DNA of 64,000 nucleotides from positions 124,001-188,000 of the forward strand of contig JACPFT010000016.1 in assembly GCA_016182845.1 (NCBI GenBank), in the 5' to 3' direction. The DNA comes from Gammaproteobacteria bacterium. Lineage in GTDB: Bacteria > Pseudomonadota > Gammaproteobacteria > Enterobacterales > Permianibacteraceae. Positions 2,520 through 57,005 of this stretch are shown piece by piece (within the stretch, counting starts at the first letter, position 1; every line of letters starts with the position of its first letter). The position numbers and the translations under genes were made by a program. The notes beneath the pieces are model-generated. The model was not told the DNA's origin and ran no database searches. It saw nothing but the letters and a program-made list of their open reading frames with translations.

Positions 2520-2545
2520 GGCTGGTCCTTTGTTGTTATTCGATT

Positions 2546-2633: not shown

Positions 2634-2658
2634 CCTTATTTACCGTAAACCGGTGGGC

Positions 2659-3912: not shown

Positions 3913-4083
3913 CGGCGGACTCCGCAGACCGTAGAGGGTCGGTTGGTGAAAAACTGGCCGTTATTCTACCGCAGTGCGGCAAATATCACAGAGCGAAATT
4001 CCCCGGCCACCCCGCAGCCCGTGACAAATTCGGCGCACTGCGGGCGCTTTCCGGGCCAGGGCGAAGCATGTTTGCCGGCCGAG

Positions 4084-5727: not shown

Positions 5728-6701
5728 GGGGCCACCTCGGCGTCCAGCTGCCGGCGGCTCAGCTTCAGGATCAGGCTCACGCTGGCGGCCAGGAGGCCGG
5801 CGGCGACCATGCCGATCACCAACAGGCCGGGCACGACGATGTCGGAATGGCGGTCCAGCATGAAGCGCGCTAGGCCGGCCACCACCAGGGTATCGACCCC
5901 CAGGGCGGCGAGGCTCAGGCCGTAGACATCGAAGCCCTGGGGCGTGGCCAGGAGGCCGGCCAGGGCCAGGAGGGCGGCGAGGCCCAGGCCGTAGTGCAAC
6001 AGGCCCTCGTCGTGGAATAGGCCGCAGAGCGCCAGGAGCCCGAAACAGCTCACCCCTAGGGTCAGAACGGTGCGCAGGGACCAGGGCCCCGCACCGGTCC
6101 AGCGCCGCGGGAGCGGCCCCAGGCCCAGGCCCAGCAGGAGCACCGCCAGCCAGCCGGCGGCATGCACCGGTAGATCGTCCGGCTCGAAGCGCCATTGGTG
6201 GCTCATGTGGGCATGAGCCCAGAGCGACAGGCCGGTGGCGACCACCAGGGCCCAGGGCGCCCACAGCACATCGCTGCGCAAGGCCAGGCAGAGCGGCAGG
6301 CCCAAGGCCGCCCAGATCGCGAAGAGCTGCCAGGGGTCGGCGCCGGTCTGGTAGGTCTGACCGAAATAGGCGAACAGCCCGCCGATGGCCAGGAAGGCCA
6401 GCAGGCCCGCGGGCAGGCGCAGGGAGGGCTTGAGCAGGACGCCGAAACCGGCGGCGAACACCAGGGCCTCGAGCAGCGCGAAACGGCCGAAGCGGCCCAG
6501 TTCCCCCCAGTTGGCCGCCAGCCAGAGGATGAGGCCGAAGCCGGCCAGGGCGGAAGCGAGCAGGGCCGTGCCGCGTGGCGCCTGCTCCGGCAGGGCGCTG
6601 GGCTCCGCCCCCTCGCCGGCCAGGATCTGGAGGCGGTGGAAATCGCCGGCACCGAGGCGATGCTCGGCGGCCATGCGGTACAGCGATAGTCGCAAGGACA
6701 T
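5724..6701 (-). CDS. DUF2157 membrane protein
   Basis: 325 residues. A soluble N-terminal part (1-45, including a conserved-looking RLGAGDFHRLQILAGE stretch) is followed by about ten predicted transmembrane helices. The segment IGGLFAYFGQTYQTGADPWQ, with its YQTGADPW core, is characteristic of DUF2157. It is the first gene of a two-gene operon with the GDYXXLXY protein and is divergent from ettA across about 137 bp. Function unknown. Confidence 0.82.
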   Translation of the reverse strand: MSLRLSLYRMAAEHRLGAGDFHRLQILAGEGAEPSALPEQAPRGTALLASALAGFGLILWLAANWGELGRFGRFALLEALVFAAGFGVLLKPSLRLPAGLLAFLAIGGLFAYFGQTYQTGADPWQLFAIWAALGLPLCLALRSDVLWAPWALVVATGLSLWAHAHMSHQWRFEPDDLPVHAAGWLAVLLLGLGLGPLPRRWTGAGPWSLRTVLTLGVSCFGLLALCGLFHDEGLLHYGLGLAALLALAGLLATPQGFDVYGLSLAALGVDTLVVAGLARFMLDRHSDIVVPGLLVIGMVAAGLLAASVSLILKLSRRQLDAEVAP

Positions 6702-6838
6702 TCCTTGTCTCCGAAAACCGGTGGAACCCGCATACTAGCCGAAACCCGGCCCCGGCGGTGGCGAGCCGCAGGGCGCCAGCGCGCCCCGGCGCGGATCGGG
6801 TACAATGCCCGCCATTTTTCCCCTCTTGAGGCAGCGCC

Positions 6839-8506
<1,668 letters not shown>

Positions 8507-8525
8507 TACCGGCCGATGAAAACAT

Positions 8526-8550
8526 ACCCGCCTCGAGCGGGTTTGTTTTT
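8526..8550 (+). terminator. Rho-independent terminator after ettA
   Basis: Six-base stem ACCCGC / GCGGGT with a CTCGA loop (8526-8542), followed by TTGTTTTT. It separates ettA from the PilZ gene. Confidence 0.85.
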
Positions 8551-8591
8551 GCTGACATCCGCGCTCGCGACGCAAGGACGACTTCAGCATC

Positions 8592-8597
8592 TATAAT
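8592..8597 (+). promoter_or_regulatory. Possible -10 element upstream of PilZ-receptor operon
   Basis: A perfect TATAAT lies 30 bp upstream of the PilZ start codon, downstream of the ettA terminator. I see no good -35 at 17 bp, so the promoter assignment is tentative. Confidence 0.35.
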
Positions 8598-8626
8598 CTA
8601 AAAATCACTCCGCACGACCTAGCAGC

Positions 8627-8995
8627 ATGAACACCGACGACCGCCGCCACCACTCCCGTATCGACTTCGCCGCCACGGCCCGCATCGTCGGCCCGGACGG
8701 CCTTCAAGCCGGACGCCTCAAGGACATCTCCTTCAAGGGCGCCCTGTTGCTGCTGGATTCTCCCTGGCAGGGCGAAGCAGGCAAGAAATACATCCTGGAA
8801 TTCGTCTTGAGCGGGTCCTACGAGGTGATTCGCATGGCGGTCACCGCCGCCTGGGCTCAAGACAGGGAAGTCGGCCTGCGCTGCGTCGGCCTTGATCTGG
8901 AAAGCGCCTCCCATCTGCGCCGCCTGGTGGAGCTCAATCTGGGCTCGGCCGAACTCCTGGAACGGGAGCTGGAAAGCCTGAGCCGGGGACAATGA
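8627..8995 (+). CDS. PilZ-domain protein
   Basis: 122 residues, essentially a lone PilZ domain. It has the two cyclic-di-GMP binding signatures in order: an arginine-rich start DDRRHHSRIDF (RxxxR type) and DISFKGALL (D/NxSxxG type) near residue 39. A cyclic-di-GMP receptor role is inferred from these motifs. Its stop overlaps the start of the TonB-dependent receptor by four bases (ATGA), so the two are co-translated. Confidence 0.85.
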   Translation: MNTDDRRHHSRIDFAATARIVGPDGLQAGRLKDISFKGALLLLDSPWQGEAGKKYILEFVLSGSYEVIRMAVTAAWAQDREVGLRCVGLDLESASHLRRLVELNLGSAELLERELESLSRGQ

Positions 8996-11226
8996 GAGGC
9001 CTGGGCCTAGGTAGGACCCCGTTATCGCTCTCCCTCGTCGCCCTCGCGGCGTGCGCCCTGCCGCTCACCGCGCAAGCCGCCGAGGACACTCCGGACTTGT
9101 TCGAGCTCTCGCTGGAAGAGCTAGTCCAATTCTCCATCAGCACCGCCTCGCGCCAAACCGAACGCCTGCAAGACGCCCCCGCCACCGCCATCGTGCTCAC
9201 CGGCGACGAACTCCGCCAGCGCGGCTACCGGGAATTGTCCGAGATCTACAATGATCTGCCGGGCATGGATCTGTCCCGCCCCTACGGCGACACCTATTTC
9301 CGCAACCAATGGCGCGGCCTGCGCAAGACCATAGGCACGCCCTACTTGCTGATGCTGGACGGCACGATCCTCAATCACTTGTATTTCAATCAGGACGAGG
9401 TGATCAGCACCCTGCCCCTGAGCCATATCGAGCGCGTCGAGATCGTCTACGGACCGGCCTCGGCCGTGTATGGCCCCAATGCCTTCGTGGGTGTGATCAA
9501 TGTGATTACCCGCCAGGACCGGTTGGTTGACGGCTATAGCCTAACCGGTCAGCTCACCGGCGGCTCCTTCGACGGGCGCATCGCCGATTTCCACTACCTG
9601 TACAAGGAGGGCGATTGGCGCTTCAGCCTGGCGGGCCGCCTGGACGACGGCGAGTTGGACACGAGCCAAGCCGGCAATTACGAGTGGACCAAGGAACATT
9701 ACCAGCAGGATCGCAGCCTCTGGGGCGCATTCGCCGATGATCACAGCCGGGGAGGCAAGTATTCCTCGCCCCATGCCAACCGGGCCCTGGATATGCGCGT
9801 CTTTCACAAGGACACCGAGTTCGCGCTGCAATACTTCAGTCTCAACACCCATTTCGGGACGGTCTATCCCTCGGACCGCGTGGCGATGCTGTCCTATTGG
9901 GCCGAACCGGATTTATCCGTATACCTGCGCCAACCCTGGCATTTTGGCGAGAGACTCTCGGCCACGCTGCTGCTGCGCTACCGCCAAAGCGGGCTGGATA
10001 ATTATTCCGACACGTTGGAAGCCTACAACGTCACCGACCCGGTGACCGGCGAACCCGTTCGCGTCGCCAATTACTCCTATTGGGCTGCGGAAAACCAAAG
10101 CTGGGCACTCAATCTGGACGGCGAATACCGGCTCGGCGAGAACTGGAATCTGCTCGGCGGGCTGAAATACGAAAGCAAGGACTTGCAAAAAGCCTATCGC
10201 ATCAATTTCGGCCCGGATATGCCGGTTAGCGAAATCCTCGAGATCGACGACTACCCGAATCCGAGCCGCCCGAACGGCGACAGCATCCCGCGCAACCGCA
10301 TAGACACCCGCGATGCCGCGCTCTACGCCATGCTCCGTTATACCCACGGCGAATTGTTCGGCTGGAATGAAAGCCACCGGCTGCTGGCTGGCGTGCGCTT
10401 CGACCACAATTCGGAATACGGCACCGCGCGCACGCTGCGCGGCGGCTATGTGCTCTCCCTGAAACCCTGGACCGCGAAGCTGCTCTACGGCGAAGCCTTC
10501 AACGAGCCGGCGCCCCGCGAGCTCTACGGCGGCTGGCGCGGCTCCGGCAGCGATCCCAGCCTGGATCCGGAAACCTCGCGCACCCTGGAAACCAGTCTGG
10601 GCTATCAGGCGGGCGATTACAGCCTCCTGCTCAGCGCTTACCGCCTGCGCAGCCAGGGCGATATCATCACCTACTCGGGCGGCGCCAGGAACCTGGGAGG
10701 GCGGCAAATCCAGGGCCTGGACCTACACCTCAACGCGCGCCTGCCCTGGGGCGAGCGGCCCTGGAATCTCTGGGCTTATTATTCCCACATCCGCGCCCGG
10801 GAATCCCGGCCCCAGGCCGACGGCCGGCTCGTCGAGGGCCCGGTGGGCGACACTGCGCCCAACAGCCTGCACCTGGGGCTGACCTGGCCCATGAGCGCGA
10901 GCTTCAGCAGCACGCTGCGCGCCCGCTACGTGGCGGCGCGGCGCACCGTGCCCACCAATCCGGTCAAGGAAGTGCCCGCCTACACGGTCTTCGATCTGAA
11001 CCTGCTGCACCGGGATTGGCCCATCAGGGGCCTGGGCTGGTCCTTGAGCGTCTTGAATCTCACCGATAAGGACTATTTCCATCCGGGCCTGCGCGAGGCC
11101 AATGCCGGCACGGCGCCCGGCTTCCGCGACGAAGACGGCCAGTGGCAGGGCAGCGCCGGCTATTACAACTCCCTGCTGCCCCAGGAGGGGCGAGGGCTCT
11201 ACCTGTCCTTGCGCGTGGATTTTTGA
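8992..11226 (+). CDS. TonB-dependent outer-membrane receptor
   Basis: 744 residues. Signal peptide about 1-29 (ending LTAQAA-ED). Next comes an ELSLEELVQFSISTASR segment typical of one receptor subgroup before the plug, the plug domain (about 60-170, with PSAVYGP-like GPASAVYGPNAFVGVINVIT), and a beta barrel ending in an aromatic residue (LRVDF). The ligand is not evident; this N-terminal style occurs in cobalamin and siderophore receptor relatives. No Fur box is visible upstream. The four-base overlap with a PilZ gene is unusual for a receptor. Confidence 0.88.
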   Translation: MRGLGLGRTPLSLSLVALAACALPLTAQAAEDTPDLFELSLEELVQFSISTASRQTERLQDAPATAIVLTGDELRQRGYRELSEIYNDLPGMDLSRPYGDTYFRNQWRGLRKTIGTPYLLMLDGTILNHLYFNQDEVISTLPLSHIERVEIVYGPASAVYGPNAFVGVINVITRQDRLVDGYSLTGQLTGGSFDGRIADFHYLYKEGDWRFSLAGRLDDGELDTSQAGNYEWTKEHYQQDRSLWGAFADDHSRGGKYSSPHANRALDMRVFHKDTEFALQYFSLNTHFGTVYPSDRVAMLSYWAEPDLSVYLRQPWHFGERLSATLLLRYRQSGLDNYSDTLEAYNVTDPVTGEPVRVANYSYWAAENQSWALNLDGEYRLGENWNLLGGLKYESKDLQKAYRINFGPDMPVSEILEIDDYPNPSRPNGDSIPRNRIDTRDAALYAMLRYTHGELFGWNESHRLLAGVRFDHNSEYGTARTLRGGYVLSLKPWTAKLLYGEAFNEPAPRELYGGWRGSGSDPSLDPETSRTLETSLGYQAGDYSLLLSAYRLRSQGDIITYSGGARNLGGRQIQGLDLHLNARLPWGERPWNLWAYYSHIRARESRPQADGRLVEGPVGDTAPNSLHLGLTWPMSASFSSTLRARYVAARRTVPTNPVKEVPAYTVFDLNLLHRDWPIRGLGWSLSVLNLTDKDYFHPGLREANAGTAPGFRDEDGQWQGSAGYYNSLLPQEGRGLYLSLRVDF

Positions 11227-11234
11227 CGGCCCCC

Positions 11235-11317
11235 AGAGCCTGTTCACGAGCTCGATCAATGGATGGAGCGCTTCCAACGCCGCGATCCGCCATTCAGCGA
11301 GGTCGTGGACAGGCTCT
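11235..11317. repeat. 83-bp palindromic element abutting radA stop
   Basis: The left arm AGAGCCTGTTCACGAGCTC is the near-perfect inverse complement of the right arm ending GACAGGCTCT (17 of 19 positions pair). No coding content. It fills the gap between the receptor and radA stop codons, which converge, and the right end touches the radA TAA. It resembles a small non-autonomous inverted-repeat element; it could also act as a bidirectional transcription barrier. Confidence 0.65.
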
Positions 11318-12684
11318 TAGAACACGGCGTCCAGGGCCTCTTTCAGATGCTGCACCGGCACGATCTCCATGCCCTCCACACCCTGCTTAGGCGCATTGCC
11401 CTTGGCCACCACGGCGCGCTTGAAGCCGTGCTTGGCCGCCTCGCGCAGGCGCTCCTGGCCATTGGGCACCGGCCTGATCTCGCCGGCCAGGCCGATCTCG
11501 CCGAACACCAATAACTCTTGTTCCAGGGAGCGGTTCTTGAGCGAGGACAGCACGGCCATGACCAGGGCGAGATCCGCCGAGGTCTCCAGGACGCGCACCC
11601 CGCCCACCACGTTGACGAAGACGTCCTGATCGTAGGTGGGGATGCCGCCGTGCCGGTGCAGGACGGCGAGCAGCATGGCCAGGCGGTTCTGATCCAGGCC
11701 TAAGGTCACGCGCCGGGGATTGCCGATGTGAGAGCTGTCCACCAGGGCCTGGACCTCCACCAGGATGGGCCGGCTGCCCTCCCAGGTGGCCATGACCACC
11801 GAGCCGGGCACGCTCTCGCCGTAGCGGGACAGGAAGATGGCCGAGGGGTTCTTCACCTCCTTGAGGCCGGTCTCGGTCATGGCGAACACGCCCAACTCGT
11901 TAACCGCGCCGAAACGGTTCTTCACGGCGCGGATCACCCGGTAGCGGGAATCGCCCTCGCCCTCGAAATAAAGCACGGCGTCGACCATGTGCTCGAGTAC
12001 CCGCGGCCCGGCCAGGGCGCCCTCCTTGGTGACATGACCCACCAGGAACATGGCCGTGCCGGTCTGCTTGGCGAAGCGCACCAGCTGGGCGGCCGACTCG
12101 CGCACCTGGGCCACGCCCCCCGGCGCAGATTGCAGCATGTCGGTGTGGATGGTCTGGATGGAGTCCACCACCATGATCTTGGGCTTCTCCTCGCCGGCCA
12201 GGCGGGTGATGCGCTCCACGTTGGTCTCGGTGAGCAGGCGCAGGCTGCCGCCGTCCAGCCCCAGGCGCTGGGCGCGCATGGACACCTGCTCCAGGGATTC
12301 CTCGCCGGTGATGTACAAGGCCTTCTCGTGCTTGGCGAGATGGCAGAGGGTCTGCAGCAGGATCGTCGACTTGCCGATCCCGGGATCGCCGCCGATCAGG
12401 ACGATGGAGCCGGGCACCATGCCGCCCCCTAAGACCCGGTCCAGTTCGGACAGGCCCGTCGCGATGCGCGGCGTATCGGCGATGCGCACCGCCGACAGGT
12501 TCTGGATCTGGGACTGGGCCCCCGCATAGCCGGCGAAGCGCGCGCTCTTCTCGCTCGCGGTCTCCGCGACGGTTTCCACCAGGGTGTTCCAGGCCCCGCA
12601 GTCGCCGCATTGCCCGCCCCATTTGCTGGCCACGGCGCCGCATTCGGTACAGGTGTAGGTGATTTTCGCCTTGGCCATGCTCAT
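11317..12684 (-). CDS. radA: DNA repair protein RadA
   Basis: 455 residues. N-terminal C4 zinc finger (CTECGAVASKWGGQCGDCG), RecA-like ATPase with Walker A GGDPGIGKST near residue 97, the RadA-specific KNRFG motif, and a C-terminal Lon-protease-like domain. It promotes branch migration during recombination. A second ATG two codons in (12678) is an equally plausible start. A terminator for the preceding operon lies immediately upstream. Confidence 0.97.
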   Translation of the reverse strand: MSMAKAKITYTCTECGAVASKWGGQCGDCGAWNTLVETVAETASEKSARFAGYAGAQSQIQNLSAVRIADTPRIATGLSELDRVLGGGMVPGSIVLIGGDPGIGKSTILLQTLCHLAKHEKALYITGEESLEQVSMRAQRLGLDGGSLRLLTETNVERITRLAGEEKPKIMVVDSIQTIHTDMLQSAPGGVAQVRESAAQLVRFAKQTGTAMFLVGHVTKEGALAGPRVLEHMVDAVLYFEGEGDSRYRVIRAVKNRFGAVNELGVFAMTETGLKEVKNPSAIFLSRYGESVPGSVVMATWEGSRPILVEVQALVDSSHIGNPRRVTLGLDQNRLAMLLAVLHRHGGIPTYDQDVFVNVVGGVRVLETSADLALVMAVLSSLKNRSLEQELLVFGEIGLAGEIRPVPNGQERLREAAKHGFKRAVVAKGNAPKQGVEGMEIVPVQHLKEALDAVF

Positions 12685-46831: not shown

Positions 46832-46884
46832 GTTTCGCATTAGTTATTTTTGTGATTAATTTTTCGTTGTACGTAGGACGCACC

Positions 46885-47796
46885 ATGACGAGACGGATCC
46901 CCCCCCTGAATAGCCTGCGCGCCTTCGACGCCGCGGCCCGCCACCTGTCCTTCACCCGCGCCGCCGAGGAACTGCACGTCACCCAAGCCGCCATCAGCCA
47001 CCAGATCAAGGGCCTGGAGGAATTCCTGGGCACCCAGCTGTTCGTGCGCCGCAACCGCGCCCTCTTGCTCACCGAGGAAGGCCAGAATTACTGGCCGCAG
47101 ATCCGCGAGGTCTTCGAGATCATCGCCGACGCCACCGAGCGCCTCATGGCCCGTGGCGCCCAGGGCGCCCTGACCATCAGCGTGCTGCCCACCTTCGCCG
47201 TGCAATGGCTGGTGCCGCGCCTCGCGGACTTCTCGCGCATCTACCCCGAGATCGACGTGCGCATCAAAGCCTCGGACTCGGGCGTGGACTTCATGCGTTC
47301 CGACGTGGACGTGGCCATCTACTACGGCAAGGGCGACTACCCGGACCTGAGCTCGGCGCGCCTGTTCAACGAATACCTGACTCCGGTCTGCGCCCCGACC
47401 CTGTTGGCGGAGCTGAAAACCCCCGAGGACCTCAAGCACCAGACCCTGCTGCACGACGCCTCGACGGAAGAATGGCAGCGCTGGCTCAAGCTCGCCGGCG
47501 TGGACGGCATCAAGATGACCGGTCCCATCTTCAGCCACTCGGCCATGGTCCAGCAGGCCGCCATTCACGGCCAGGGCGTCGCCCTGGGCCATAACGTCCT
47601 GTCCCAGGCCGATATCCAGGCCGGCCGCCTGGTCCGCCCCTTCAACATCATCCTGCCCAGCGAATACGGCTACGACGTGGTCTGTCCCGATCCCTGGGGC
47701 GACCGGCCCAAGATCGTCGCCTTCCGCGACTGGCTCTTGTCCGTGGTCAAGAAGGAAAAGGACGCCGACGAGTTCGGCAAAGCCAGCCAGTTATAA
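46885..47796 (+). CDS. LysR-family regulator, GcvA-like
   Basis: 303 residues from the ATG at 46885 (MTRRIPPLNSLRAFDAAARHLSF), with AGGA six bases upstream. LysR helix-turn-helix (SFTRAAEELHVTQAAISHQIKGLEE split around residues 22-46) and a periplasmic-binding-like effector domain. The N-terminal PPLNSLRAFDAAARHLSFTRAA style is that of GcvA, the glycine cleavage regulator, though gcv genes are not in this window. Confidence 0.88.
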   Translation: MTRRIPPLNSLRAFDAAARHLSFTRAAEELHVTQAAISHQIKGLEEFLGTQLFVRRNRALLLTEEGQNYWPQIREVFEIIADATERLMARGAQGALTISVLPTFAVQWLVPRLADFSRIYPEIDVRIKASDSGVDFMRSDVDVAIYYGKGDYPDLSSARLFNEYLTPVCAPTLLAELKTPEDLKHQTLLHDASTEEWQRWLKLAGVDGIKMTGPIFSHSAMVQQAAIHGQGVALGHNVLSQADIQAGRLVRPFNIILPSEYGYDVVCPDPWGDRPKIVAFRDWLLSVVKKEKDADEFGKASQL

Positions 47797-48099
47797 GCAG
47801 CCCAAGTCACCAGGCCAAGCCGGTCTATGGCAAGCCTTGATCGCCACGGCGGGAGGGGGTAACCTCCTTCCCGCTGTCGGTATGAGACTCCGTTCTCCCT
47901 ATCGCCGACACCCTTCCCGCATTACCCGCCAGGGCCCGAGCCGGCGGTTCCCAATCCGAGTGGTTTTCATGGCGCATCTGCCCCGCGCCAGGCTTGCTTT
48001 TGTCCAGAAAATCGCCTTTACGCTCAAGTTGTGCACAGCGGATGTCGCTCCGGAACGCCGCCAGCAGCCCCTGTCAACCGCCCATGCGCCGATCCGGCG

Positions 48100-48140
48100 A
48101 AATATTTTATCTGTTTGATTTCATTGATATATTTTTGATT
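48100..48140. other. AT-rich tract (possible unwinding element)
   Basis: About 41 bp with very few G/C pairs (AATATTTTATC, TTGATATATTTTTGATT), in sharp contrast to the GC-rich surroundings. It lies 79 bp left of the first DnaA box. Confidence 0.5.
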
Positions 48141-48218
48141 GCGCAGTTTCTGCCCGATCCGAGGGCAAGCCAGTAATGACGCGGCCTGCAGCCATCTTCC
48201 CAAAAACAGATCACAGAG

Positions 48219-48249
48219 TTATGCACACAATCTGTGGGCATGTGGATAT
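48219..48249 (+). promoter_or_regulatory. DnaA-box module 1
   Basis: TTATGCACA (48219-48227) matches the DnaA consensus TTATNCACA exactly. Two bases later ATCTGTGGGCA follows, and then TGTGGATAT (48241-48249), an inverted box with one mismatch. The first 22 bp recur at 49273-49294. Confidence 0.6.
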
Positions 48250-48421
48250 CGTCGATGTCCTTGCCGCCGGCTTGTGCGGAAAGCATCCGATTCGCTCACG
48301 CCTTGACCGGTTCGCGAGGCCCCCGGAGCCCGCTGGCCGATAGGGGCGAAATTTCGACCAGCCGCCGCCAGGCCAGCGCCCACGCCGCTCCGCGCCGCCT
48401 ATGCCTAAGCTATCCCCGCGC

Positions 48422-48430
48422 TTATCCACA
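48422..48430 (+). promoter_or_regulatory. DnaA box
   Basis: Perfect TTATCCACA, followed nearby by TGTGGATTT, a weaker inverted copy. Confidence 0.55.
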
Positions 48431-48480
48431 TCGGCTGTGGATTTCCATAAAACCGTCCAGCGACTCGACGCGGTCCCTTA

Positions 48481-48659
48481 GGAGGCGGGCGGAAATAAGT
48501 TGGACAAGATGGCGCCCGGATTTGGGTCGAATTGGGTTGTGCCGATTGAGCAAAACCGCAGGCGTAGCTGGGCTACGTCGAGGATTTTGCGATTGAGGCG
48601 CGGCCCAAGGCGGCCTGAAGCCGGGATGCAAGATGGACAACTTATTTCCGCCCGCCTCC
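48481..48659. mobile_element. 179-bp MITE-like element with TTA duplication
   Basis: Perfect terminal inverted repeats of about 22 bp beginning GGAGGCGGGCGGAAATAAGT, flanked on both sides by TTA (48478-48480 and 48660-48662), which fits a 3-bp target duplication. The centre folds around GTAGCTGGGCTAC, with outer TTGAGCAAAA / TTTTGCGATT arms. No transposase ORF. It lies 50 bp from a DnaA box. Confidence 0.8.
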
Positions 48660-48942
48660 TTAGGCCTGCAATAACCGAACACAGGGCGAACCGGTCGCGC
48701 CAGCCCTCGATCAGAAACCGCAATTCAGGGTTTGGCAGAGTTCGAGCACGCCCGAAGCGCGCTTCAATCCGCCCGCAGGAGTTCAACGCTTCCGGTGGGT
48801 TGTAGCGCGTAGGTGAACTTGCGCGCTACATGCTTTAAGGCTGAAAAAATTTTCGCCGCCACGCACCTACCGAGTGCATCGGGAACGAAAATCCGCAACT
48901 CAACTTGCAAAAGTTGCCCGGCAAGGCCTTCTTATACGGAGG

Positions 48943-49021
48943 TGTTGCAAGTTCAGTTGCGGAAAGTTCGCCACTGATGCCGGCCGCTGTTGCAAGTTCG
49001 TCTTCGGACTGTTGCAAGTTC
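48943..49021 (+). repeat. Iteron-like direct repeats
   Basis: The 12-mer TGTTGCAAGTTC occurs exactly three times, starting at 48943, 48988 and 49010 (spacings 45 and 22 bp, about four and two helical turns). A degenerate version lies at about 48956-48969, and an inverted AACTTGCAA at 48902-48910. Same-phase short repeats like this usually bind a replication initiator or another oligomeric protein. Confidence 0.65.
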
Positions 49022-49160
49022 ATCTGCGCCGCAACAAATCGATGCCGCGGCGCGCAAAACTGTCGAGGAGTTTTACACATGGATCGCGAAAGCTTCACAG
49101 ATCCGGCCTGGAAGCCGCGAATTCCCTGAGCCGCGCCGCGAAAACCCTAAGGCTCAAACC

Positions 49161-49223
49161 GTATCTATTTGTTTTGTAACGATTATTTTATTTTGGTTAA
49201 ATTTTCACCAGCTTAAATCAAAA
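49161..49223. other. Second AT-rich tract
   Basis: About 63 bp dominated by A/T (GATTATTTTATTTTGG, TTAAATTTTC), 50 bp left of DnaA module 2. The order AT-rich tract then DnaA module mirrors 48100-48249. Confidence 0.5.
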
Positions 49224-49272
49224 GCCGGCACCACGGGGCTTGAGCAAGGTTCAATAAGCGAAACCCACAGGT

Positions 49273-49294
49273 TTATCCACAGGATCTGTGGGCA
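49273..49294 (+). promoter_or_regulatory. DnaA-box module 2
   Basis: TTATCCACA (49273-49281), two bases, then ATCTGTGGGCA. It agrees with module 1 at 19 of 22 positions with identical spacing, 1054 bp away. Confidence 0.6.
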
Positions 49295-49374
49295 AGCATT
49301 TAACCGAGGTTCAGCCTGCCCCTTGCCAGACCGCCCAGCCTTGTCTAGGCTGAGGTTTTACCCCCGCCCCGCCC

Positions 49375-50226
49375 ATGATCTGCCAAGAACTGCGCCTGCC
49401 GGCCCGCGATGGCTATGCCCTGGCGGCCAGCCTCTATCTCCCCGATACCGAAGCGCGCCAGGCCGTCCTGGTGAATTCCGCCATGGCCGTGCCGCGCCGC
49501 TATTACGCGGCCTTCGCCCGCCATCTCTGCGAGCGCGGCGCCGCCGTGCTGACTTATGACTACCGAGGCGTGGGCGACAGCCGGGATCGGCACTGGCGGC
49601 AGATCCGCGCCGATTACCGGGACTGGGGCGAGAAGGATCAGCCGGCCCTGCTGGACTGGCTGCACGGGCGTTTCCCGGCCGCCTCCCTGCGCGTCCTGGG
49701 GCATTCGGCGGGCGGGCAGATCTTCGGCCTGGCGGACAACAACGCGCTGGTGGCTCGCGTCCTGGCCGTGGCCTCGGGTTCCGGCTACCACGGTCATTGG
49801 CGCGGCAGGGAGAAGCTCAAGCTCCTGCCCTTCTGGTATCTGTTCCTGCCGGCCAGCACGGCCCTCATGGGTTATTTCCCGGGTCCCTGGTTCGGCATGC
49901 TGCCGCTGCCGGCGGGCGTGGCCCGGCAATGGGCGCGCTTCGCCCGGAACCGCCATTATGTGTCCGACGCCCAAGGCCAGGCCCTGCGCCAGCACTTTCA
50001 CGGTTATCGCGGCGCCATGCGCTTCCTGGCGATATCCGACGATCCCTTCTATGCGCCGGAGGGCGCCGTGCGCGCCCTGGCCGGCTATTACGCCAATGCC
50101 CGCACCGAGGTGGCCCTGCGCCATCCCTGCGACTACGGCATGGCGAAGCTCGGGCATTTCGGCTTCTTCCGCGACAGCACGCCCCGCGCCGCCTGGGACG
50201 AGGCGGCGGACTGGCTGCTGGGCTGA
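49375..50226 (+). CDS. Alpha/beta-fold hydrolase
   Basis: 283 residues. Nucleophile elbow GHSAGG near residue 119, preceded by the oxyanion strand LVNSAMAVPRRYY; candidate acid in FLAISDDPFYAPEGA and late histidine in MAKLGHFGFF. Related proteins are annotated as serine aminopeptidase-like or general esterases; the substrate is unknown. No ribosome site is obvious before the ATG. A family C REP-like hairpin follows the stop. Confidence 0.8.
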   Translation: MICQELRLPARDGYALAASLYLPDTEARQAVLVNSAMAVPRRYYAAFARHLCERGAAVLTYDYRGVGDSRDRHWRQIRADYRDWGEKDQPALLDWLHGRFPAASLRVLGHSAGGQIFGLADNNALVARVLAVASGSGYHGHWRGREKLKLLPFWYLFLPASTALMGYFPGPWFGMLPLPAGVARQWARFARNRHYVSDAQGQALRQHFHGYRGAMRFLAISDDPFYAPEGAVRALAGYYANARTEVALRHPCDYGMAKLGHFGFFRDSTPRAAWDEAADWLLG

Positions 50227-50283: not shown

Positions 50284-51774
50284 TCACGGCCGCATGCCCG
50301 CCGCGTGCAGCATCAGATGGAATAGGACGTTCTGCTCCAGGGAGCCGGTGAACAGCTGGGCCCAGGGGCCGTCGGCATAGACCGGCACGTCCTCGGCGGA
50401 GTGGGTCTCGCTCTTGAGCGGGATCAGGGCCTCCTGACGGTGGTTCAGGGCGGCGGTGTCGCGCTTGCCCAGGTCCACCCGGCCACCGGTATGGGGCTCG
50501 CCGTCCAGCTCACCGACGCCGGGGCCGTTGGTGTAATTGAGCACGGCGATAGGCAGGCCGTTCAGGTCGGTCACCGGCTTGGCCTTGCCCCGCCCTTCCT
50601 CCACCAGGCCCAGGACCGGGTTGCCGCGCCGGGGATAGGCGCCGCCGAAGCCCAACGTATGACCGTGGTCGGCGGTGACCACGATCAAGGTGTCCTCGGC
50701 CGAGGTGGCGGCGCGGGCGGCCTGCACGGCCTTGGCGAATTCGATGGTCTCCTCCAGGGCACGGCGGGCATTGCCGGCATGATGGGCATGGTCGATGCGT
50801 CCGCCCTCCACCATCAGGAAAAAGCCGTCCTTGTCGCCCTGGAGCAGAGCTATGGCCTTGGCGGTCATCTCGGACAGGGAGGGTTCGCCGGCCTTGTCCT
50901 CGGCCCGATCCGCCTCGTAGTCCATGTGGGAGGGGTCGAACAGGCCCAGGACCGGCTTGTCGCCGGCCTTCAGCGCCGCGAAGCCCTTCGCGTCCATGAC
51001 ATAGCGGCCGGCCGGGTGTTTGGCCCGCCATTCGGCGATAAGGTTGCGGCCGTCCTTGCGCTCGCCGGATTTCTTGGGGTTTTCCGGGTCGTTCACGGCC
51101 TCGGGCAGGAACTTCCCGCGCCCGCCGCCAAACGCCAGCTCGATGCCGTCGCCGAGGGAAAACTCGACGAACTGGCGGGCGATGTCGGTACAACCCTTGG
51201 CCTTGGCGGCCTCGGGCAGTGTGTCGTCGGCCTCCCAATCGCGGTCGGCGCTATGGGCATAGGTGGCGCCGGGCGTGGCATGGGTCAGGCGCGCCGTACT
51301 GATGATGCCGGTGGCCTTGCCGGCTTGTTCGGCCCGTTCCAGGAAGGTCGCGACCTTGTGGGCCTCGGGACCGTCGCAATGGCCGATGCGCGCCCCGTCA
51401 TCCAGGGACAGGACGCCGGCCTTGGTCTTCACCCCGGTCATCAGGGCGCTCATGGTGCCGGCCGAGTCGGGCACCATGGCATCGGTGTTATAGGTCTTGA
51501 TCAGGCCGGTGTAGGGGAAGGTCTCGAAGAACAGCCGGTTCTCCTCGCCGGTGCCGCCGGCCCGCTGGCCCTCCAGAACGCGTGCGGCATTGACCGTCGC
51601 CAGGCTCATGCCGTCGCCCAGGAAGAAGATGATGTTCTTGGCTTTCTTGGTATTGGCCTGGCGCGCCAGGGCCGATTTCAGGCTGGCCTGGCCGGCGGCG
51701 AACCAGGGATCGGCGGCGGCGGTCGCGGACAACAGGGCGGCGCAGAGCAGGGTCAGGGCGGCGGCTGGACGCAT
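50284..51774 (-). CDS. Alkaline phosphatase (PhoA family)
   Basis: 496 residues from the ATG at 51774 (MRPAAALTL), which opens a clean signal peptide (cleavage near SATAAA-DP); a GTG three codons upstream is possible. Active-site serine in VPDSAGTMSALMTG (near 100), metal ligands in IIFFLGDGMS, EGGRIDHAHH and VVTADHGHTLGF. A periplasmic phosphomonoesterase releasing phosphate from organic esters, including those left by phytase. It follows the phytase gene on the same strand. Confidence 0.93.
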   Translation of the reverse strand: MRPAAALTLLCAALLSATAAADPWFAAGQASLKSALARQANTKKAKNIIFFLGDGMSLATVNAARVLEGQRAGGTGEENRLFFETFPYTGLIKTYNTDAMVPDSAGTMSALMTGVKTKAGVLSLDDGARIGHCDGPEAHKVATFLERAEQAGKATGIISTARLTHATPGATYAHSADRDWEADDTLPEAAKAKGCTDIARQFVEFSLGDGIELAFGGGRGKFLPEAVNDPENPKKSGERKDGRNLIAEWRAKHPAGRYVMDAKGFAALKAGDKPVLGLFDPSHMDYEADRAEDKAGEPSLSEMTAKAIALLQGDKDGFFLMVEGGRIDHAHHAGNARRALEETIEFAKAVQAARAATSAEDTLIVVTADHGHTLGFGGAYPRRGNPVLGLVEEGRGKAKPVTDLNGLPIAVLNYTNGPGVGELDGEPHTGGRVDLGKRDTAALNHRQEALIPLKSETHSAEDVPVYADGPWAQLFTGSLEQNVLFHLMLHAAGMRP

Positions 51775-51804
51775 CGTGGACACTCATTCGTAAAGGAGAA
51801 AATA

Positions 51805-51830
51805 GGGCCGCGCGATTATACGCGCGGCCC
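51805..51830. promoter_or_regulatory. Palindrome enclosing TATAAT in the phoA leader
   Basis: A perfect ten-base stem GGGCCGCGCG / CGCGCGGCCC whose six-base loop reads TATAAT on the minus (phoA) strand. It could be the phoA -10 (start would fall about 35 bp before the ATG), or a terminator of the phytase transcript followed by TATTTT, or both. No convincing -35 or complete PHO box accompanies it. Confidence 0.5.
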
Positions 51831-51874
51831 GGACTCGGGAAATGACGGCGTCGAGGCAGTGCCGAACCGATAGG

Positions 51875-51963
51875 CCGTTCGTGGTGAGCCTGTCGAACCA
51901 TGAATGGCATGGCAACCACGGAGAAAATGCCCATTCACCCTTCGACAGGCTCAGGGCGAACGG
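51875..51963. repeat. REP-like inverted repeat, family A copy 3
   Basis: Arms GAGCCTGTCGAA and TTCGACAGGCTCAGGGCGAA face each other between the phoA leader and the phytase stop. Confidence 0.8.
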
Positions 51964-51996
51964 ACATTTTCCCCTTAGCAGACTAGCCTCGCCGCC

Positions 51997-53883
51997 TCAA
52001 GGCAGGCGCAGCGCCTCGGCCACCGCCTGCCAGGGCAGCAGCTTGAAGTTCTGCCGGCCCGCCGGCAGGCGCTTGCGCCCGTCCTGAACCACCACCAGGC
52101 CCCGGCCATAGGCGCCGCCCAGGTTCGCCGAGCTGACCTCCAGGCCGTCGGTCTCGGAGGCGCCGTCGATGCCGGCGGCGGCATTCAGGCCGATGCGGAA
52201 GGCGCCGCGCGGGGCATGGGGCGGCGCCGCGTCCAGGACCACATAGCTGTCATTGCCCTGGCTGGACACCAGGAGATAGCTGGCATCCGCGCCGTGGTAC
52301 AGGCCCATGCCCTCGATATCCGGGTGCAGCCACCGACCCTTGCCCAGCACGCGCTCGAAGCGGCCCGGGGCCTTGGGCTCGGCGGACACGCTCCAGATCG
52401 CCTGGTCTTCCTCGCCGACGAAGAGGCGGTGGTTACGGTCGTCGGCCACGCAGCCCTCGGGCTGGCTGGGAAGCCGGAGCGTGCGCAGCAGCGTGGCGGA
52501 GAGCTTGCCGCCCTTGCCGCTCAGCCGGTACTGCAGGATGGTCCCGTCCTTGTCATTGGGCAGGGCATGGATCTCGCCGGGACGCGGCGAATACAGGCAG
52601 ATGCCGTAGATGTCCTTGAGCGGGGTGGCGAGCTTGCCCAGCTCGCGCACTTCCCCGCTCGTGCGGTCGATGCCGAAGACGTTCAAGCTGTTGTCCACCC
52701 GGTTGCCGGCCACGGCGATGTCCAGGATCTCGCCGCCGAAGCGGAAGCCGTAGCGCAGGTCGACGTTATTGATATCGCCGACCGGCAGGCTCTGCAGGCG
52801 CTGGCCCGCCAGATCGTAGACTTCCAGGCCGCGCTTCTTGTCGGTGGCGAGGATACGGCTCCTGGCCGGATCGTCCGCGTGCACCCAGATGGCCGGATCG
52901 TCGGCGGCATCGCCCTGGCTCCGCACCGGCTCGGTCTGGGCCTCGGGCAGAAGCACCGGCAGGGCCGCCGGCGCGGCGGCCTGGGGCGCGGCCCAGGCCA
53001 GGGTCGTTTCATGGAAGCGGCCGTCCTCGTCGTCGCGGGCCAGGATGCTTAAGTGACCGTCCCGCCACTGGGCCGCCAGCGCCTCGCCGGATTCGACCCC
53101 GGCCAGGCGCAGGCCGGGCGCCGCCGAGAAACCGTCCGTTCCGGCGCGGTAGGCGTGCACGACCCCGCCGTCCACGGCCAGGACCCCGCCCGGCACCACG
53201 GCCAGGGCGGCGGCGCCCTTGTCCAGGCCGCCGAAGGGCTGCACCAGGTCCACCGGGGCGCGCAGGCCGTCGCTCTCCGGATGGGCCTCATAGGCCCAGA
53301 GCCCGATGCCTTCCTCGTTGACATAGAGCCGGTCGCCGGCATCCTCGGCGCGGCAGCGGCTCGCCGCCGGCGGCAGGCTCAAGCTCCGCACCGCCTTGGC
53401 CTCGGCCAGCAGGGCCTCGCCCCGGCCCACCAGCCATTGCTCGCCCCGGCCTTCCTCGCCCACCACGAAGGCGTAGAGATTGCTCTGGGCATCGCGGTAC
53501 AGGCAGACGTCCTCGACGGCGTAGTCCGCCACCGGCAGGCGCAGGGCCGGCCCGAAGCCGGTCTCCGGCATCAGGGGTAGCACGCTGACCTGCTGACGCT
53601 CCCGGTCGTAGCTGGCCAGGGCCAGGCCTTGCCCCAGGGCCCGGCTGTCCAGGCCGGAGAAACGCCCGGCCTGGCGGCGGACTTCCTTACCCTTGCCGTC
53701 CACCAGGACCAGGCCCTGGCGGCGGCTGGCCACGACGCGCTCGGCACCCTGCCAGTCGCCGGCCGGCAGGAAGGCCACGGCCTCAGCCTCCAGGGCCGGG
53801 TCCACGGCCCAGACCTCGGCCTGAAGCGGCAGGGCTGCCAGCAGCAAAGCCAGTGCAGGCAGCATCTTCATCGACTTCATCAT
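51997..53883 (-). CDS. Beta-propeller phytase with two lobes
   Basis: 628 residues from the ATG at 53883 (MMKSMKMLP), with GAGG five bases upstream; longer readings run through a repeat. Signal peptide about 1-22. The C-terminal half (about 315-628) is a full beta-propeller phytase domain with the calcium and phosphate signature GDAADDPAIWVHADDP (324-339), KRGLEVYDL and FVGEEDQAIWSV. The N-terminal half (about 25-300) is a diverged propeller lobe retaining YVNEEGIGLWAYE. Dual-domain phytases of this build hydrolyse phytate more fully. Between a TonB receptor gene and phoA. Confidence 0.9.
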   Translation of the reverse strand: MMKSMKMLPALALLLAALPLQAEVWAVDPALEAEAVAFLPAGDWQGAERVVASRRQGLVLVDGKGKEVRRQAGRFSGLDSRALGQGLALASYDRERQQVSVLPLMPETGFGPALRLPVADYAVEDVCLYRDAQSNLYAFVVGEEGRGEQWLVGRGEALLAEAKAVRSLSLPPAASRCRAEDAGDRLYVNEEGIGLWAYEAHPESDGLRAPVDLVQPFGGLDKGAAALAVVPGGVLAVDGGVVHAYRAGTDGFSAAPGLRLAGVESGEALAAQWRDGHLSILARDDEDGRFHETTLAWAAPQAAAPAALPVLLPEAQTEPVRSQGDAADDPAIWVHADDPARSRILATDKKRGLEVYDLAGQRLQSLPVGDINNVDLRYGFRFGGEILDIAVAGNRVDNSLNVFGIDRTSGEVRELGKLATPLKDIYGICLYSPRPGEIHALPNDKDGTILQYRLSGKGGKLSATLLRTLRLPSQPEGCVADDRNHRLFVGEEDQAIWSVSAEPKAPGRFERVLGKGRWLHPDIEGMGLYHGADASYLLVSSQGNDSYVVLDAAPPHAPRGAFRIGLNAAAGIDGASETDGLEVSSANLGGAYGRGLVVVQDGRKRLPAGRQNFKLLPWQAVAEALRLP

Positions 53884-53931
53884 TCCATCCTCAAATAACT
53901 TCGCCAGACCCCGGGGCCTTTGGCGAAAACA

Positions 53932-54063
53932 CCGTTCGCCCTGAGTAAAGGCGCGAAGCGCCTTGTATCGAAGGGCATGGGGGCAACACGCGGCTTGGCC
54001 GACGGAGCGCTTCCGCTCATGGTTCGATACAAGCGGCCTTGCCGCTTTACTCACCACGAACGG
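53932..54063. repeat. REP-like inverted repeat, family B copy 2
   Basis: Arms CCGTTCGCCCTGAGTA...TATCGAAGGG and the inverse TTCGATAC...TTACTCACCACGAACGG, each with its own small stem (AAGGCGCGAAGCGCCTT and AAGCGGCCTTGCCGCTT). It lies between phytase and its receptor gene. Confidence 0.8.
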
Positions 54064-54086
54064 AAGCTTCGTGCCGTTGCGTCGTC

Positions 54087-56597
54087 TCAGAAATGCGTGT
54101 AGCTCAGGCCCAGGACATAGGTCGGGCCGTATTCCTCGTACTGGGCGTTATAGGCCCGGCGCCCGGTATAGGCGTAATAGGGCTCGTCGTTGAGGTTCTG
54201 TGCCTCGACATAGACCTGCAGGTTCTTGCTCAGGAAATAGTGAGCCGAGAAGTCCAGCTGGGTCTGGGCATCCACTTCCACGTCATGGGCCTTGTCGCCG
54301 ACGCCGGCCACTTCCAGCAGGTAGTCCGACTTGTAGTTGGCGGTCAGACGCAGGTTCCAGTGCTCGGTCTCATAGCCCAGGGTCAGGTTGCCCGTCAGCT
54401 CCGACTGGTTGGGCAGGCGAATCGTCCGGCGCAGGCCCTCGCCATTCTCGATCTCCGCCTCGGAATGGCTCCAGCTGGCATTGGCGCCGATCAGGAGGCC
54501 GTTCCAGGGCGCGGGCAGCATGGCCAGCTTATGGCTGTAGTTCAGCTCCAGGCCCAGCAGCTCGGCCTCCTCGCCATTGGCGAAGCTCAAGGCGCTGTCG
54601 AAATCCGCCCAGCGGCCGCTACCGGCCAGATCCGTGTTGTACACGAAGTGCTCGATGTCCTTGTAGAACAGGAAGGCCGAGAGCACGCTGGCCTCGCCCA
54701 GATAGTGCTCGATGCCCAGATCCAGGTTGGAGGCCTCCAGGGGCTTGAGCTCCGGGTTGCCGAATTCCGCTTCCGCGCCGTCGATGAGGAAGCCGGGGCG
54801 GGCCTGCTCGAAGGTCGGGCGCACCACGCTGTGGGTCCAGGCCATGCGCAGCTGGGTCGCCTCGCCGATCGGGTAGCGGGCATGCAGGCCCGGCAGCCAG
54901 TGGCCGTCCTCGCGCTCGGTGTCCACCGCGACGAATTCGCCGTCTTCGACGCCGGTGCCGACGGCGCGGAAGTCGGTGCCCTCGTAACGCAGGCCGGCGA
55001 TGAGCTGCCAGTCCTCCAGGTCCAGGCGCTGCATGACGTAAGCGGCGTCGATGTCCTCGTGGATCCGGTAGTCCTCGATGCGCGAGGCCTCCTCGTCGTA
55101 GAAGTCCTCGCGGTCCAGGCCGCTCAGCAGGCCGGCGATGGGGTCCAGGGCGATGCCCTGGCCGAAGGGCTGCAGGCTGTAGTCCACATCGCCGTCGAGA
55201 TAGGCGCTCATGCTCAGGGCGCTGGCCGGCACGCCGGCGTCCTTGAGCTTCTTGAAGGCCCAGAGTTCGCTGTCGCCGGTCTTCTCGCGGCGGCTGGCCT
55301 TGGCGCCGAACTTCAGCTCGGCCTCATGGCCGGCCCAGTCGAAGCTGCGCGCCAGATCCAGGCGGGCATTGCGCTCCCGGTCCTCGGTGTCCGAAGACTC
55401 CAGCTCGGCCTTGTCGAGGCTGAACCTGGTCGGGTCGAAGAACAGGCCGGGGGCGATGAGACGGGGCCGCTGGCCGCCCGTGTAACCGAAGCCGGACTGC
55501 TTGCCGGCGGTGAACACGATGGGATCGAAATGCTCCGGCGTGTCCTCGCCGGCCCGGCTGACACCGGCCTGGCCGCTCAGGGTCCAGTCGCCGAGGCCGC
55601 GCTTGCCGCCCAGGACGAGCGAGCGGATGGTCTGCTCCTCGTAGCGATCCTTCAGCCGGCGTTCGACCTTGGCCTTGCCGGTCTCGCCTTCGGCCATGGC
55701 CTTATCGAAGCTGAGCTTGGCCGACTGGCGGGTCTCTTGATCGGAGAAGCGGCTGGCCAGGGTGCGCAGGTAATAGCTGTCGCCCTCATCGCTCCGGTAG
55801 TCCAGGTTCAGGGCGCCGCCGCGGCGCTCGCGTCCGATGCGGTAATCGCGCAGCTCCACCGATTCCAGGCGGGCGCCGTCCTCGAAGTCCCAGGCGCCGC
55901 CCGTCTCGACATTCTCCGAGCCGAAGCGGTGCTGGTGCCCGTTCAGGGCGCCGGCCAGGGCCCATTCGCCGCCGGCGACCGGGAAGCGCTGGCTGTAGGC
56001 GCCGGAGTATTTCGGGCTGTACTGGCCGGTGTTCTCGTCATAGCCGCCCTGGGCGGTCAGGGCATAGAAGCGATCGCGATGGTCGAAACCGGACAGGCTC
56101 TCCACGTTGATCGTGCCGCCCAGGGAATTGGCGTCCATGTCCGGGGTCAGGCTCTTGACCACGGTCAGGGACTGGACCAGCTCGGCGGGCACCACGTCCA
56201 GGGCCACGGCGCGCCGGCCGCTCTCCGGGGCCGGCACCAGGGAGCCGTTGATGGTCACGGCATTCAGATCCGGCCCCAGGCCGCGCACGCGGATGAAGCG
56301 GCCCTCGCCCTGGTCGCGCTCGACGGACACGCCGGGCAGGCGCTGCAGGGCCTCGGCGGCATTGGCATCGGGCAGCTGGCCTATGCCATCGGCATGCACG
56401 ACGCTCTCGATACTGTCCGCATAGCGCTGCTTGCGCAGGGACTCGTCCAGGCTGGCGGCCTGGCCGATGACCACGATGCGCTCGGTGCCGGCGTCATCAT
56501 CAGGCGTTTCCGCCTGGGCGCTGCCGGCCAAGACGGCGAGACAGAGGGCGCTGTAACGAAAGGCCGCCGAGGCGGCGCGGGTATGGAATCTGGACAC
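54087..56597 (-). CDS. TonB-dependent receptor, probable phytate/phosphate-ester uptake
   Basis: 836 residues from the GTG at 56597, preceded by GGGGAGA; upstream in-frame sequence crosses repeats and the promoter. Signal peptide about 1-30 (SAQA-ET). A plug with the Xanthomonas/Caulobacter receptor subgroup style (ADSIESVVHADGIGQLPDAN, AEALQRLPGVSVERDQGEGRFIRVRGLGPDLNAVTINGS, split) and a barrel ending GLSYTHF. This subgroup is found next to beta-propeller phytases. The gene is preceded by a PHO-box-like site. Confidence 0.9.
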   Translation of the reverse strand: MSRFHTRAASAAFRYSALCLAVLAGSAQAETPDDDAGTERIVVIGQAASLDESLRKQRYADSIESVVHADGIGQLPDANAAEALQRLPGVSVERDQGEGRFIRVRGLGPDLNAVTINGSLVPAPESGRRAVALDVVPAELVQSLTVVKSLTPDMDANSLGGTINVESLSGFDHRDRFYALTAQGGYDENTGQYSPKYSGAYSQRFPVAGGEWALAGALNGHQHRFGSENVETGGAWDFEDGARLESVELRDYRIGRERRGGALNLDYRSDEGDSYYLRTLASRFSDQETRQSAKLSFDKAMAEGETGKAKVERRLKDRYEEQTIRSLVLGGKRGLGDWTLSGQAGVSRAGEDTPEHFDPIVFTAGKQSGFGYTGGQRPRLIAPGLFFDPTRFSLDKAELESSDTEDRERNARLDLARSFDWAGHEAELKFGAKASRREKTGDSELWAFKKLKDAGVPASALSMSAYLDGDVDYSLQPFGQGIALDPIAGLLSGLDREDFYDEEASRIEDYRIHEDIDAAYVMQRLDLEDWQLIAGLRYEGTDFRAVGTGVEDGEFVAVDTEREDGHWLPGLHARYPIGEATQLRMAWTHSVVRPTFEQARPGFLIDGAEAEFGNPELKPLEASNLDLGIEHYLGEASVLSAFLFYKDIEHFVYNTDLAGSGRWADFDSALSFANGEEAELLGLELNYSHKLAMLPAPWNGLLIGANASWSHSEAEIENGEGLRRTIRLPNQSELTGNLTLGYETEHWNLRLTANYKSDYLLEVAGVGDKAHDVEVDAQTQLDFSAHYFLSKNLQVYVEAQNLNDEPYYAYTGRRAYNAQYEEYGPTYVLGLSYTHF

Positions 56598-56650
56598 GGT
56601 GTCTCCCCAGGAACGGCTATGGGGCCTGCGAACCAGGCCGATGGCTGCGC

Positions 56651-56684
56651 ACCCTAGGGCGGGTCCGTGACGATTGCGTGACAG
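56651..56684 (-). promoter_or_regulatory. PHO-box-like site and -10 for the receptor gene
   Basis: On the minus strand CTGTCAC GCAA TCGTCAC: two 7-mers separated by four bases (11-bp period), compared with the PhoB consensus CTGTCAT NNNN CTGTCA(C/T). The first matches 7 of 7 to the relaxed form, the second 5 of 7. TAGGGT lies exactly 10 bp downstream as a -10, the usual PhoB geometry. It is 70 bp before the GTG start. Confidence 0.6.
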
Positions 56685-56828
56685 GGTTCCGCCCCAGCCC
56701 AGGGAAAACGGGGATTTTCGGATCATTGAACGGCGTTTTGAGCTTTTCGGACCTTGGGGAAGGCGAAACCCGAGTGCGCATGGCCTCGTAACCCCCGAGC
56801 GGAAGCTGCCAGATACCCGGGGCGACGG

Positions 56829-56940
56829 CCCTTCGATACGGCCGCTACGCGGCCTACTCAGGGCGAACGGGGTATCGATCGCGAAGGGATAAGTAAACCG
56901 TTCGCCCTGAGTAGCCGCCGTCAGGCGATGTATCGAAGGG
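56829..56940. repeat. REP-like inverted repeat, family B copy 3
   Basis: Arms CCTTCGATAC...TACTCAGGGCGAACGG and CCGTTCGCCCTGAGTA...TATCGAAGG with stem-loops GGCCGCTACGCGGCC and a less regular GCCGCCGTCAGGCG. It separates the two divergent promoters. Confidence 0.8.
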
Positions 56941-57005
56941 CCGCGTGCCGCCATGCGCCGCACCTATGCCCTGAGCCGTTCGGACCCGTTTCCCGGTTTT
57001 CCCCG

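Follow-up and report, generated by a model that had tools for sequence, protein, structure and literature searches.

Putative tandem DARS1-type elements and a bare DARS-like core in a gene-free gap of a gammaproteobacterial genome

The DARS sites of E. coli are described, in the accessible part of PMC5742627, as three DnaA boxes separated by N5 and N3, with box I lying opposite to boxes II and III. Both E. coli sites, DARS1 and DARS2, have this order in their sequences: box III-N3-box II-N5-inverted box I. According to excerpts of PMC5742627 and PMC4245941, oligomers of ADP-DnaA on the DARS core of E. coli release ADP, and the apo-DnaA then takes up ATP. The same excerpts of these DARS mechanism papers state that DARS2 needs IHF and Fis and that DARS1 needed no extract in vitro; in them, IHF figures as a partner of DARS2 and not of DARS1. 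Another E. coli site, datA, has DnaA boxes with an IHF site between them (PMC5742627, in the part available). Its boxes 2, 3 and 7 surround one IHF site, and its activity is ATP hydrolysis. A portion of PMC10380432, citing another paper, states that many proteobacteria have conserved sequences resembling DARS1 and DARS2.

The gap considered here probably carries two diverged DARS1-type elements in tandem, A and B, and one bare DARS-like core at 48422. Most likely, it represents copies of a DnaA-recharging DNA switch rather than a replication start site. This reading is based on the geometry of the cores and on flanks that are homologous, in a register-specific manner, to those of E. coli DARS1 and of DARS loci in six families. 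An earlier note on this DNA had proposed a DnaA-binding locus linked to replication control, which was right, though the anatomy is of the DARS type and not that of an origin. DARS sites as such are known. The novelty lies in a tandem pair that is not next to uvrB and in the presence, across several families, of an IHF-like site at -110/-111. The titles and abstract beginnings returned by a partial literature search mention neither an IHF site in DARS1 nor a tandem DARS pair.

DnaA boxes and DARS-like cores

The genome has a size of 3.82 Mb in 26 contigs, and the window, i.e., the whole 64-kb stretch of DNA analysed, corresponds to C22:124001-188000. The gap, 1.6 kb long, separates the gene of a LysR-family regulator (46852-47796, + strand; Pfam HTH_1 and LysR_substrate) from that of an alpha/beta hydrolase (49375-50226, + strand; Pfam Hydrolase_4 / Abhydrolase_1). 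Its G+C content is 0.57, that of the window 0.67. None of the eight ORFs of at least 80 aa in the gap has a Pfam match at E 0.01, the gap has no Rfam match at gathering scores, and no tRNA was found in it. A DNA search with the whole gap in 59 genomes (58 relatives and its own) gave, outside its own genome, just two short matches (G053 and G016). To the right of the hydrolase gene, genes of an alkaline phosphatase, a phytase-domain protein and a TonB-dependent receptor lie on one strand (50284-56963), perhaps a set for phosphate or phytate uptake.

As the earlier note had stated, three perfect DnaA boxes, TTATNCACA, occur in the window, at 48219, 48422 and 49273, all on the + strand. The expectation for the window is 0.26, in agreement with the roughly 0.3 given earlier, and 0 of 100 shuffles reached three. 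The box density over the genome, proposed as a check, reveals no overall enrichment. The whole genome has 21 matches versus 20 for the reversed pattern, so the signal is one of clustering, with 3 of the 21 inside 1.06 kb of the gap. Boxes with up to one mismatch number 13 in the window, six of them in the gap.

Five bp behind each of the three gap boxes stands an inverted partner, which the earlier note did not mention. The genome contains the pattern TTATNCACA-N5-TGTGG three times, always in the gap, and its reversed control 0 times. Across the order, the pattern is present in 97 of 197 genomes versus 15 of 197 for the control (counted by hand from the table). At the relatives' pair sites, a third box with at most two mismatches is found at N3 in 31 of 51 cases, versus 0 to 2 of 51 at each of 15 other spacers; in the majority of these loci, the inverted pair therefore belongs to a DARS core.

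In the gap, three triplets have the exact DARS spacing, with a perfect box II and two to four mismatches in boxes I and III. The core of element A (48207-48241, + strand) comprises box III CAGATCACA (four mismatches), box II TTATGCACA (none) and inverted box I TGTGGGCAT (three). The bare core (48410-48444, + strand) is formed by CTATCCCCG (three mismatches), TTATCCACA (none) and TGTGGATTT (two), and the core of element B (49261-49295, + strand) by AAACCCACA (three), again TTATCCACA (none) and TGTGGGCAA (two). The weakness of boxes I and III counts against the DARS reading. In 0.89 Mb of the genome's own sequence, two triplets with up to five mismatches occur, both in the gap, versus 0 for the reversed sequence and 0 for each of ten other spacings. 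At up to seven mismatches there are four, all in the gap, versus 0 reversed and 0 to 3 for other spacings. At up to eight, the seven triplets overlap with the 1 to 11 of other spacings; beyond six mismatches, the number of triplets ceases to stand out.

Similar arrangements were noticed elsewhere. A further triplet with five mismatches, outside the 0.89-Mb scan, is found at C6:107866, adjoining what reads by eye as a phage portal-like frame. Directly upstream of mutS, at C19:223068 (L132 6057-6091), a double DnaA box is part of a DARS-like core with a mismatch sum of 6 that has no DARS1-type flank; mismatch repair may be under DnaA control here. In a group of relatives' loci (f7: L035, L039-L042), an inverted DnaA-box pair lies between a transglycosylase gene (SLT_4) and a CorC-like gene and has no third box at N3; it is apparently another kind of DnaA site.

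The earlier note had also described phased repeats or iterons between the boxes. The repeats exist, as three copies of TGTTGCAAGTTC at 48943, 48988 and 49010 with an inverted partner at 48892-48910 (together 48892-49035). For iterons, the copies are few and their spacing of 45 and 22 is uneven. In contigs C22 and C14, TTGCAAGTTC was found nowhere besides the gap.

Regulatory flanks of elements A and B

Element A as a whole extends from 48029 to 48241, with box II at 48219, and element B from 49071 to 49295, with box II at 49273. A distal DnaA box with one mismatch, TTGTGCACA, lies 190 bp upstream of box II in element A (48029-48037, + strand); its counterpart in element B, TTTTACACA, also with one mismatch, lies 202 bp upstream (49071-49079, + strand). 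Between distal box and core, element A has an IHF-like site at -111, TATCTGTTTGATT (48108-48120, + strand), with one mismatch to TAAnnnnTTGATW, and a second IHF-like site at 48128-48140. At the same distance of -111, element B has the IHF-like sequence TATCTATTTGTTT (49162-49174, + strand), with two mismatches to the IHF consensus. The site of element A is clear and that of element B degenerate. The two AT-rich tracts reported earlier to precede two of the boxes are real: they stand before the first and third boxes, with a G+C content of 0.19 at 48100-48142 and 0.27 at 49158-49212, and correspond in register to the flanks of DARS loci from six families of the order.

Many relatives share this layout: relative to box II, they have an IHF consensus at -110/-111 along with an extra DnaA box near -190 or -200. 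A profile of 43 modules, from which L034, L037, L045, L048, L055, L083, L092 and the own three sites were dropped, has its maxima for TTGAT-like words at -104 and -103 (7 each; mean 0.22) and for TnnTnCACA at -190 (9 of 43; mean over offsets 0.07). The corresponding 40-row listing of IHF sites and distal boxes includes the own sites and further omits L035, L036 and L039-L042. Fis sites number 3 in the gap versus 1.7 expected, with a consensus that is too loose; a Fis homologue of 64% identity is present in the genome. In most loci upstream of uvrB in one family (f25: L026-L031, L033), CCCAGTATTGGCGCGG resembles the stretch GCCAGTAATGACGCGG of element A, which belongs neither to the DnaA boxes nor to the IHF-like site.

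The flanks were compared by means of a matrix built from 16 modules of six families, one of which is the window's own family, represented by another genus; the own genome was excluded. These 16 training loci were picked for the shared site at -110/-111, after such a site had been seen in element A. A core-free version of the matrix covers positions -116 to -14 relative to box II. It was run over 1,832,854 positions, which make up about 24% of the own genome, plus short stretches around the own boxes, uvrB and rppH. The flank of element B (49157-49259, + strand) ranks first and that of element A (48103-48205, + strand), homologous to the DARS1-type flank, ranks second, with scores of 52.1 and 51.5. 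The next independent site, in the gap between dnaA and rpmH, scores 20.8, which is also the maximum for the stretches around the own boxes, uvrB and rppH. Of the 18 perfect boxes elsewhere in the genome, two belong to L132, one lies in contig C22, which was part of the scan, and 15 were examined together with their triplets. In the surroundings of these 15, the core-free score does not exceed the same 20.8 and the full matrix never gives a positive score. On a G+C-rich background, the full matrix assigns 95.4 and 76.4 to the two gap sites.

The match of both flanks depends on register. None of 5000 column shuffles reached the score of either flank. Shifting the register by one base reduces the better score to 15.1 for A and 35.9 for B, and shifting it by two bases brings all scores below zero. 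The bare core at 48422 has no DARS1-type flank: its upstream sequence ranks 165,205 of 782,712, yet 4978 of 5000 column shuffles score lower. Inspection by eye had suggested a conserved hairpin around -62 to -28, for which the z values give no support (mean z -0.64 and -0.24).

E. coli DARS1 was not used for training. With the core-free matrix, it comes first among the 9,726 positions of its locus, and DARS2 ranks 342 of 15,726. For A and B as for E. coli DARS1, one core-free matrix thus gives top ranks within the sequence scanned. The best full-matrix scores of the E. coli loci are 65.9 for DARS1, 3.8 for polA, -6.3 for DARS2, -19.5 for nrdA, -20.9 for datA, -28.9 for purH and -29.0 for oriC. 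In leave-one-out runs, the loci of f1 (2 of 2), f8 and f6 rank first; f9 gives ranks 1 and 2 (2 of 4 loci tested), f4 rank 7 of 19,726, and f25 ranks 27 and 18 of 5,762 (2 of 7 loci tested). Fifteen other scored DARS-like loci fall outside the flank class, with ranks from 67 to 12,652. By the leave-one-out ranks, the flank class is real but not tight.

These scores bear on the proposal, also made earlier, of a datA-like site, which would act as a sink for DnaA or promote the IHF-dependent hydrolysis of DnaA-bound ATP. Among the three readings then offered, it comes nearest to the anatomy of the gap, in which an IHF-like site lies between DnaA boxes as in E. coli datA, and any box cluster binds some DnaA. 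The gap sites, however, follow the DARS spacing. E. coli datA itself has no close match to the core (lowest sum 6, with box I about five off), and the matrix separates it widely from DARS1. A datA-like function of the gap is therefore improbable.

A and B agree at 45 of the 103 flank positions; E. coli DARS1 agrees with A at 48 and with B at 41. Since A is no closer to B than to E. coli DARS1, the pair is not a recent copy. A MITE-like element of 190 bp (48475-48664), absent from the earlier note, sits between the bare core and element B. As measured by script, it has perfect arms of 23 bp (48480-48502 and 48638-48660) within longer near-perfect ends. A second full copy is located at C22:96709 (183 of 189 positions identical), and single ends are found at C14:270581, C6:13365 and C19:250043.

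The low similarity of the two flanks, the degenerate boxes I and III and the presence of a MITE-like element could point to the decaying, inactive remains of a duplicated DARS1 locus. On the other side, box II is perfect in all three cores, the MITE-like element interrupts neither A nor B, and the flanks, at 52.1 and 51.5, score as high as or higher than the left-out loci of other families, which reach at most 42.1 (on different backgrounds). There is thus only a small chance that the elements are relics.

Genomic setting and the origin question

In the relatives read, the inverted pair lies away from dnaA: none of 30 loci contains a match to dnaA, dnaN or rpmH. Ten of the relatives' pair loci adjoin uvrB, as does E. 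coli DARS1, and one is located between rppH and mutH. Others lie at transglycosylase and CorC genes, a P-II-like gene, pta, nrdA or a nucleoside-recognition ('Gate') gene. The own uvrB is found at C10:13256, away from the gap, which counts against the DARS1-type reading; a location at uvrB is not needed for function. No box with up to one mismatch is present in the 10 kb surrounding the own uvrB and the own 'Gate' gene (C17), and no core with up to six mismatches adjoins the own rppH (C23). DARS2 is characterised by IHF and essential Fis sites at fixed distances and by a location between rppH and mutH; the gap does not fit this type, the DARS2 flank being unrecognised by the shared matrix. This genome is not the only one with tandem cores: a low-GC relative (G027:C22; L079 ~4990-5250) has two DARS-like cores 221 bp apart. 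The best core-free match near the own uvrB (14.1) is found about 1.25 kb upstream, at about 12.0 kb of C10 (L129 5006); it has no core and no DnaA boxes and is possibly a DARS1 remnant or a chance match.

Relatives of the lysR gene were found in Kangiella and another gammaproteobacterium (4 loci). Those in G001, a complete genome of the same family, and in G002 are 61% identical. Close to them lie relatives of the hydrolase gene (about 44% identical), at a distance of 2.5 kb in G001 and 4.5 kb in G002. In neither genome does this region have a perfect DnaA box. In G001, they are 25-29 kb away from the DARS site at 901 kb, which is positioned at 0.58 of the path from dnaA to its antipode; E. 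coli DARS1 is positioned at 0.66 of the path from oriC.

The start of the hydrolase gene lies 93 bp past the first base of box I of element B. With a DnaA site about 100 bp before its start, this gene, or another one, could have a DnaA-regulated promoter to which the DARS geometry is incidental; in E. coli, DnaA regulates nrdA, uvrB and others, as stated in the available part of PMC11317965. Such a promoter is very unlikely to explain the locus. Sigma-70-like promoter matches in the gap number 0 versus 0.6 expected, no perfect box precedes the hydrolase relatives of G001 and G002, element A would be left unexplained, and nrdA, purH and polA of E. coli do not have the flank.

The earlier note had first considered oriC or the origin of a second replicon fused to the chromosome, in which the AT-rich tracts would be unwinding elements and the boxes would load DnaA. 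A box cluster with AT-rich tracts in a gene-free gap would suit such a function. The dnaA-rpmH region, however, is located on another contig, C14, and has its own cluster of five boxes with up to one mismatch plus an AT-rich tract; there is no box cluster in the sequence before the own mnmG (C14:271727). In G001, the GC skew is negative in 11 of 11 samples before dnaA and positive in 9 of 9 from dnaA on. The counts of GGGNAGGG, which we take to be the FtsK-orienting motif of E. coli, change there from 1/12 before dnaA to 10/2 from dnaA on.

In the own genome, GGGNAGGG is strongly biased on other contigs (53/8 in ten samples of C24 and 41/17 in 200 kb of C10). On C22, the counts are 15/40 to the left and 4/12 to the right of the gap, so its polarity does not switch there. 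The cumulative GC skew, another proposed check, is weak on C22; it does have a low, near 190 kb, which is about 17 kb to the right of the gap and not in it. C14 shows no clean switch at dnaA in the draft, with GGGNAGGG counts of 54/30 to the left and 3/5 to the right of 248 kb. Unlike C10, C22 and C24, C14 (1-276828) thus has mixed polarity around dnaA, caused either by a rearrangement near the origin or by the assembly.

The draft assembly does not by itself place oriC, and the C22 low and the C14 counts are two contrary results. The gap was nevertheless rejected as an origin on the basis of GC skew, GGGNAGGG polarity, the complete relative G001 and the places of dnaA and mnmG. An origin is very unlikely here, also in view of the low matrix score of E. 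coli oriC, and the anatomy of the gap can be explained without a fused replicon.

Proposed function and comparison with known sites

If the DARS1-type reading is correct, nucleotide exchange would be expected at the gap by analogy with E. coli. ADP-DnaA would gather on boxes I-III, where its ADP would be released. The apo-DnaA would then leave, take up ATP and thereby restore the ATP-DnaA pool for initiation at oriC. IHF may bend the DNA at -111, in the stretch that separates the distal box from the core, and in this way gate or boost the exchange. Two adjacent copies would raise the recharging capacity, and the box cluster may additionally hold DnaA. The bare core at 48422 may serve titration, act as a spare core or be a relic.

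A possible, though somewhat doubtful, scenario is that the ancestral DARS1 of the order was IHF-gated and had a distal box, and that E. coli DARS1 is a simplified descendant. The lineage studied here would have amplified the element, at a new location, into a tandem pair plus a third core, and its ATP-DnaA supply would depend on a doubled, IHF-gated locus of the DARS1 type. With a tandem pair in a GC-rich relative and an IHF-like site at a constant distance in several families, it becomes possible to test whether IHF regulated DARS1 before its simplification in E. coli, and whether cells tune initiation via the number of recharging sites. In addition, the core-plus-flank matrix can find DARS1-type sites where uvrB is not a neighbour, and it prevents the misannotation of such box clusters as origins.

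Compared with described sites, the gap is closest to E. coli DARS1, which lies between bioD and uvrB (~813.1 kb of NC_000913.3). That site has the same core in the same orientation as A and B, and its flank from -116 to -14 is matched by the same matrix. Like A and B, it has, in our reading, a distal box at about -209 and a degenerate IHF-like word at -111. The gap differs in having two elements plus a third core where E. coli has a single one, in not being beside uvrB, in the clearer IHF-like site of A at -111 and in its weaker boxes I and III.

The DARS1-type loci of relatives are located by uvrB (f25, f9, f6) or by the nucleoside-recognition gene (f1, f8), with f4 as a further family. They share the core with the gap, as well as, in most cases, an IHF-like site at -110/-111 and a distal box near -190 to -202, but mostly form one inverted pair per genome; G027 has two cores. 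E. coli DARS2, in the rppH-mutH gap, resembles the locus in its core geometry, its IHF site (-99) and its distal box (-197, opposite strand), whereas its flank is unrecognised by the matrix and the IHF distance differs. E. coli datA shares non-coding DnaA boxes with an IHF site; its lowest core sum is 6 versus the 5-mismatch cores of the gap, and at -20.9 it has no flank homology.
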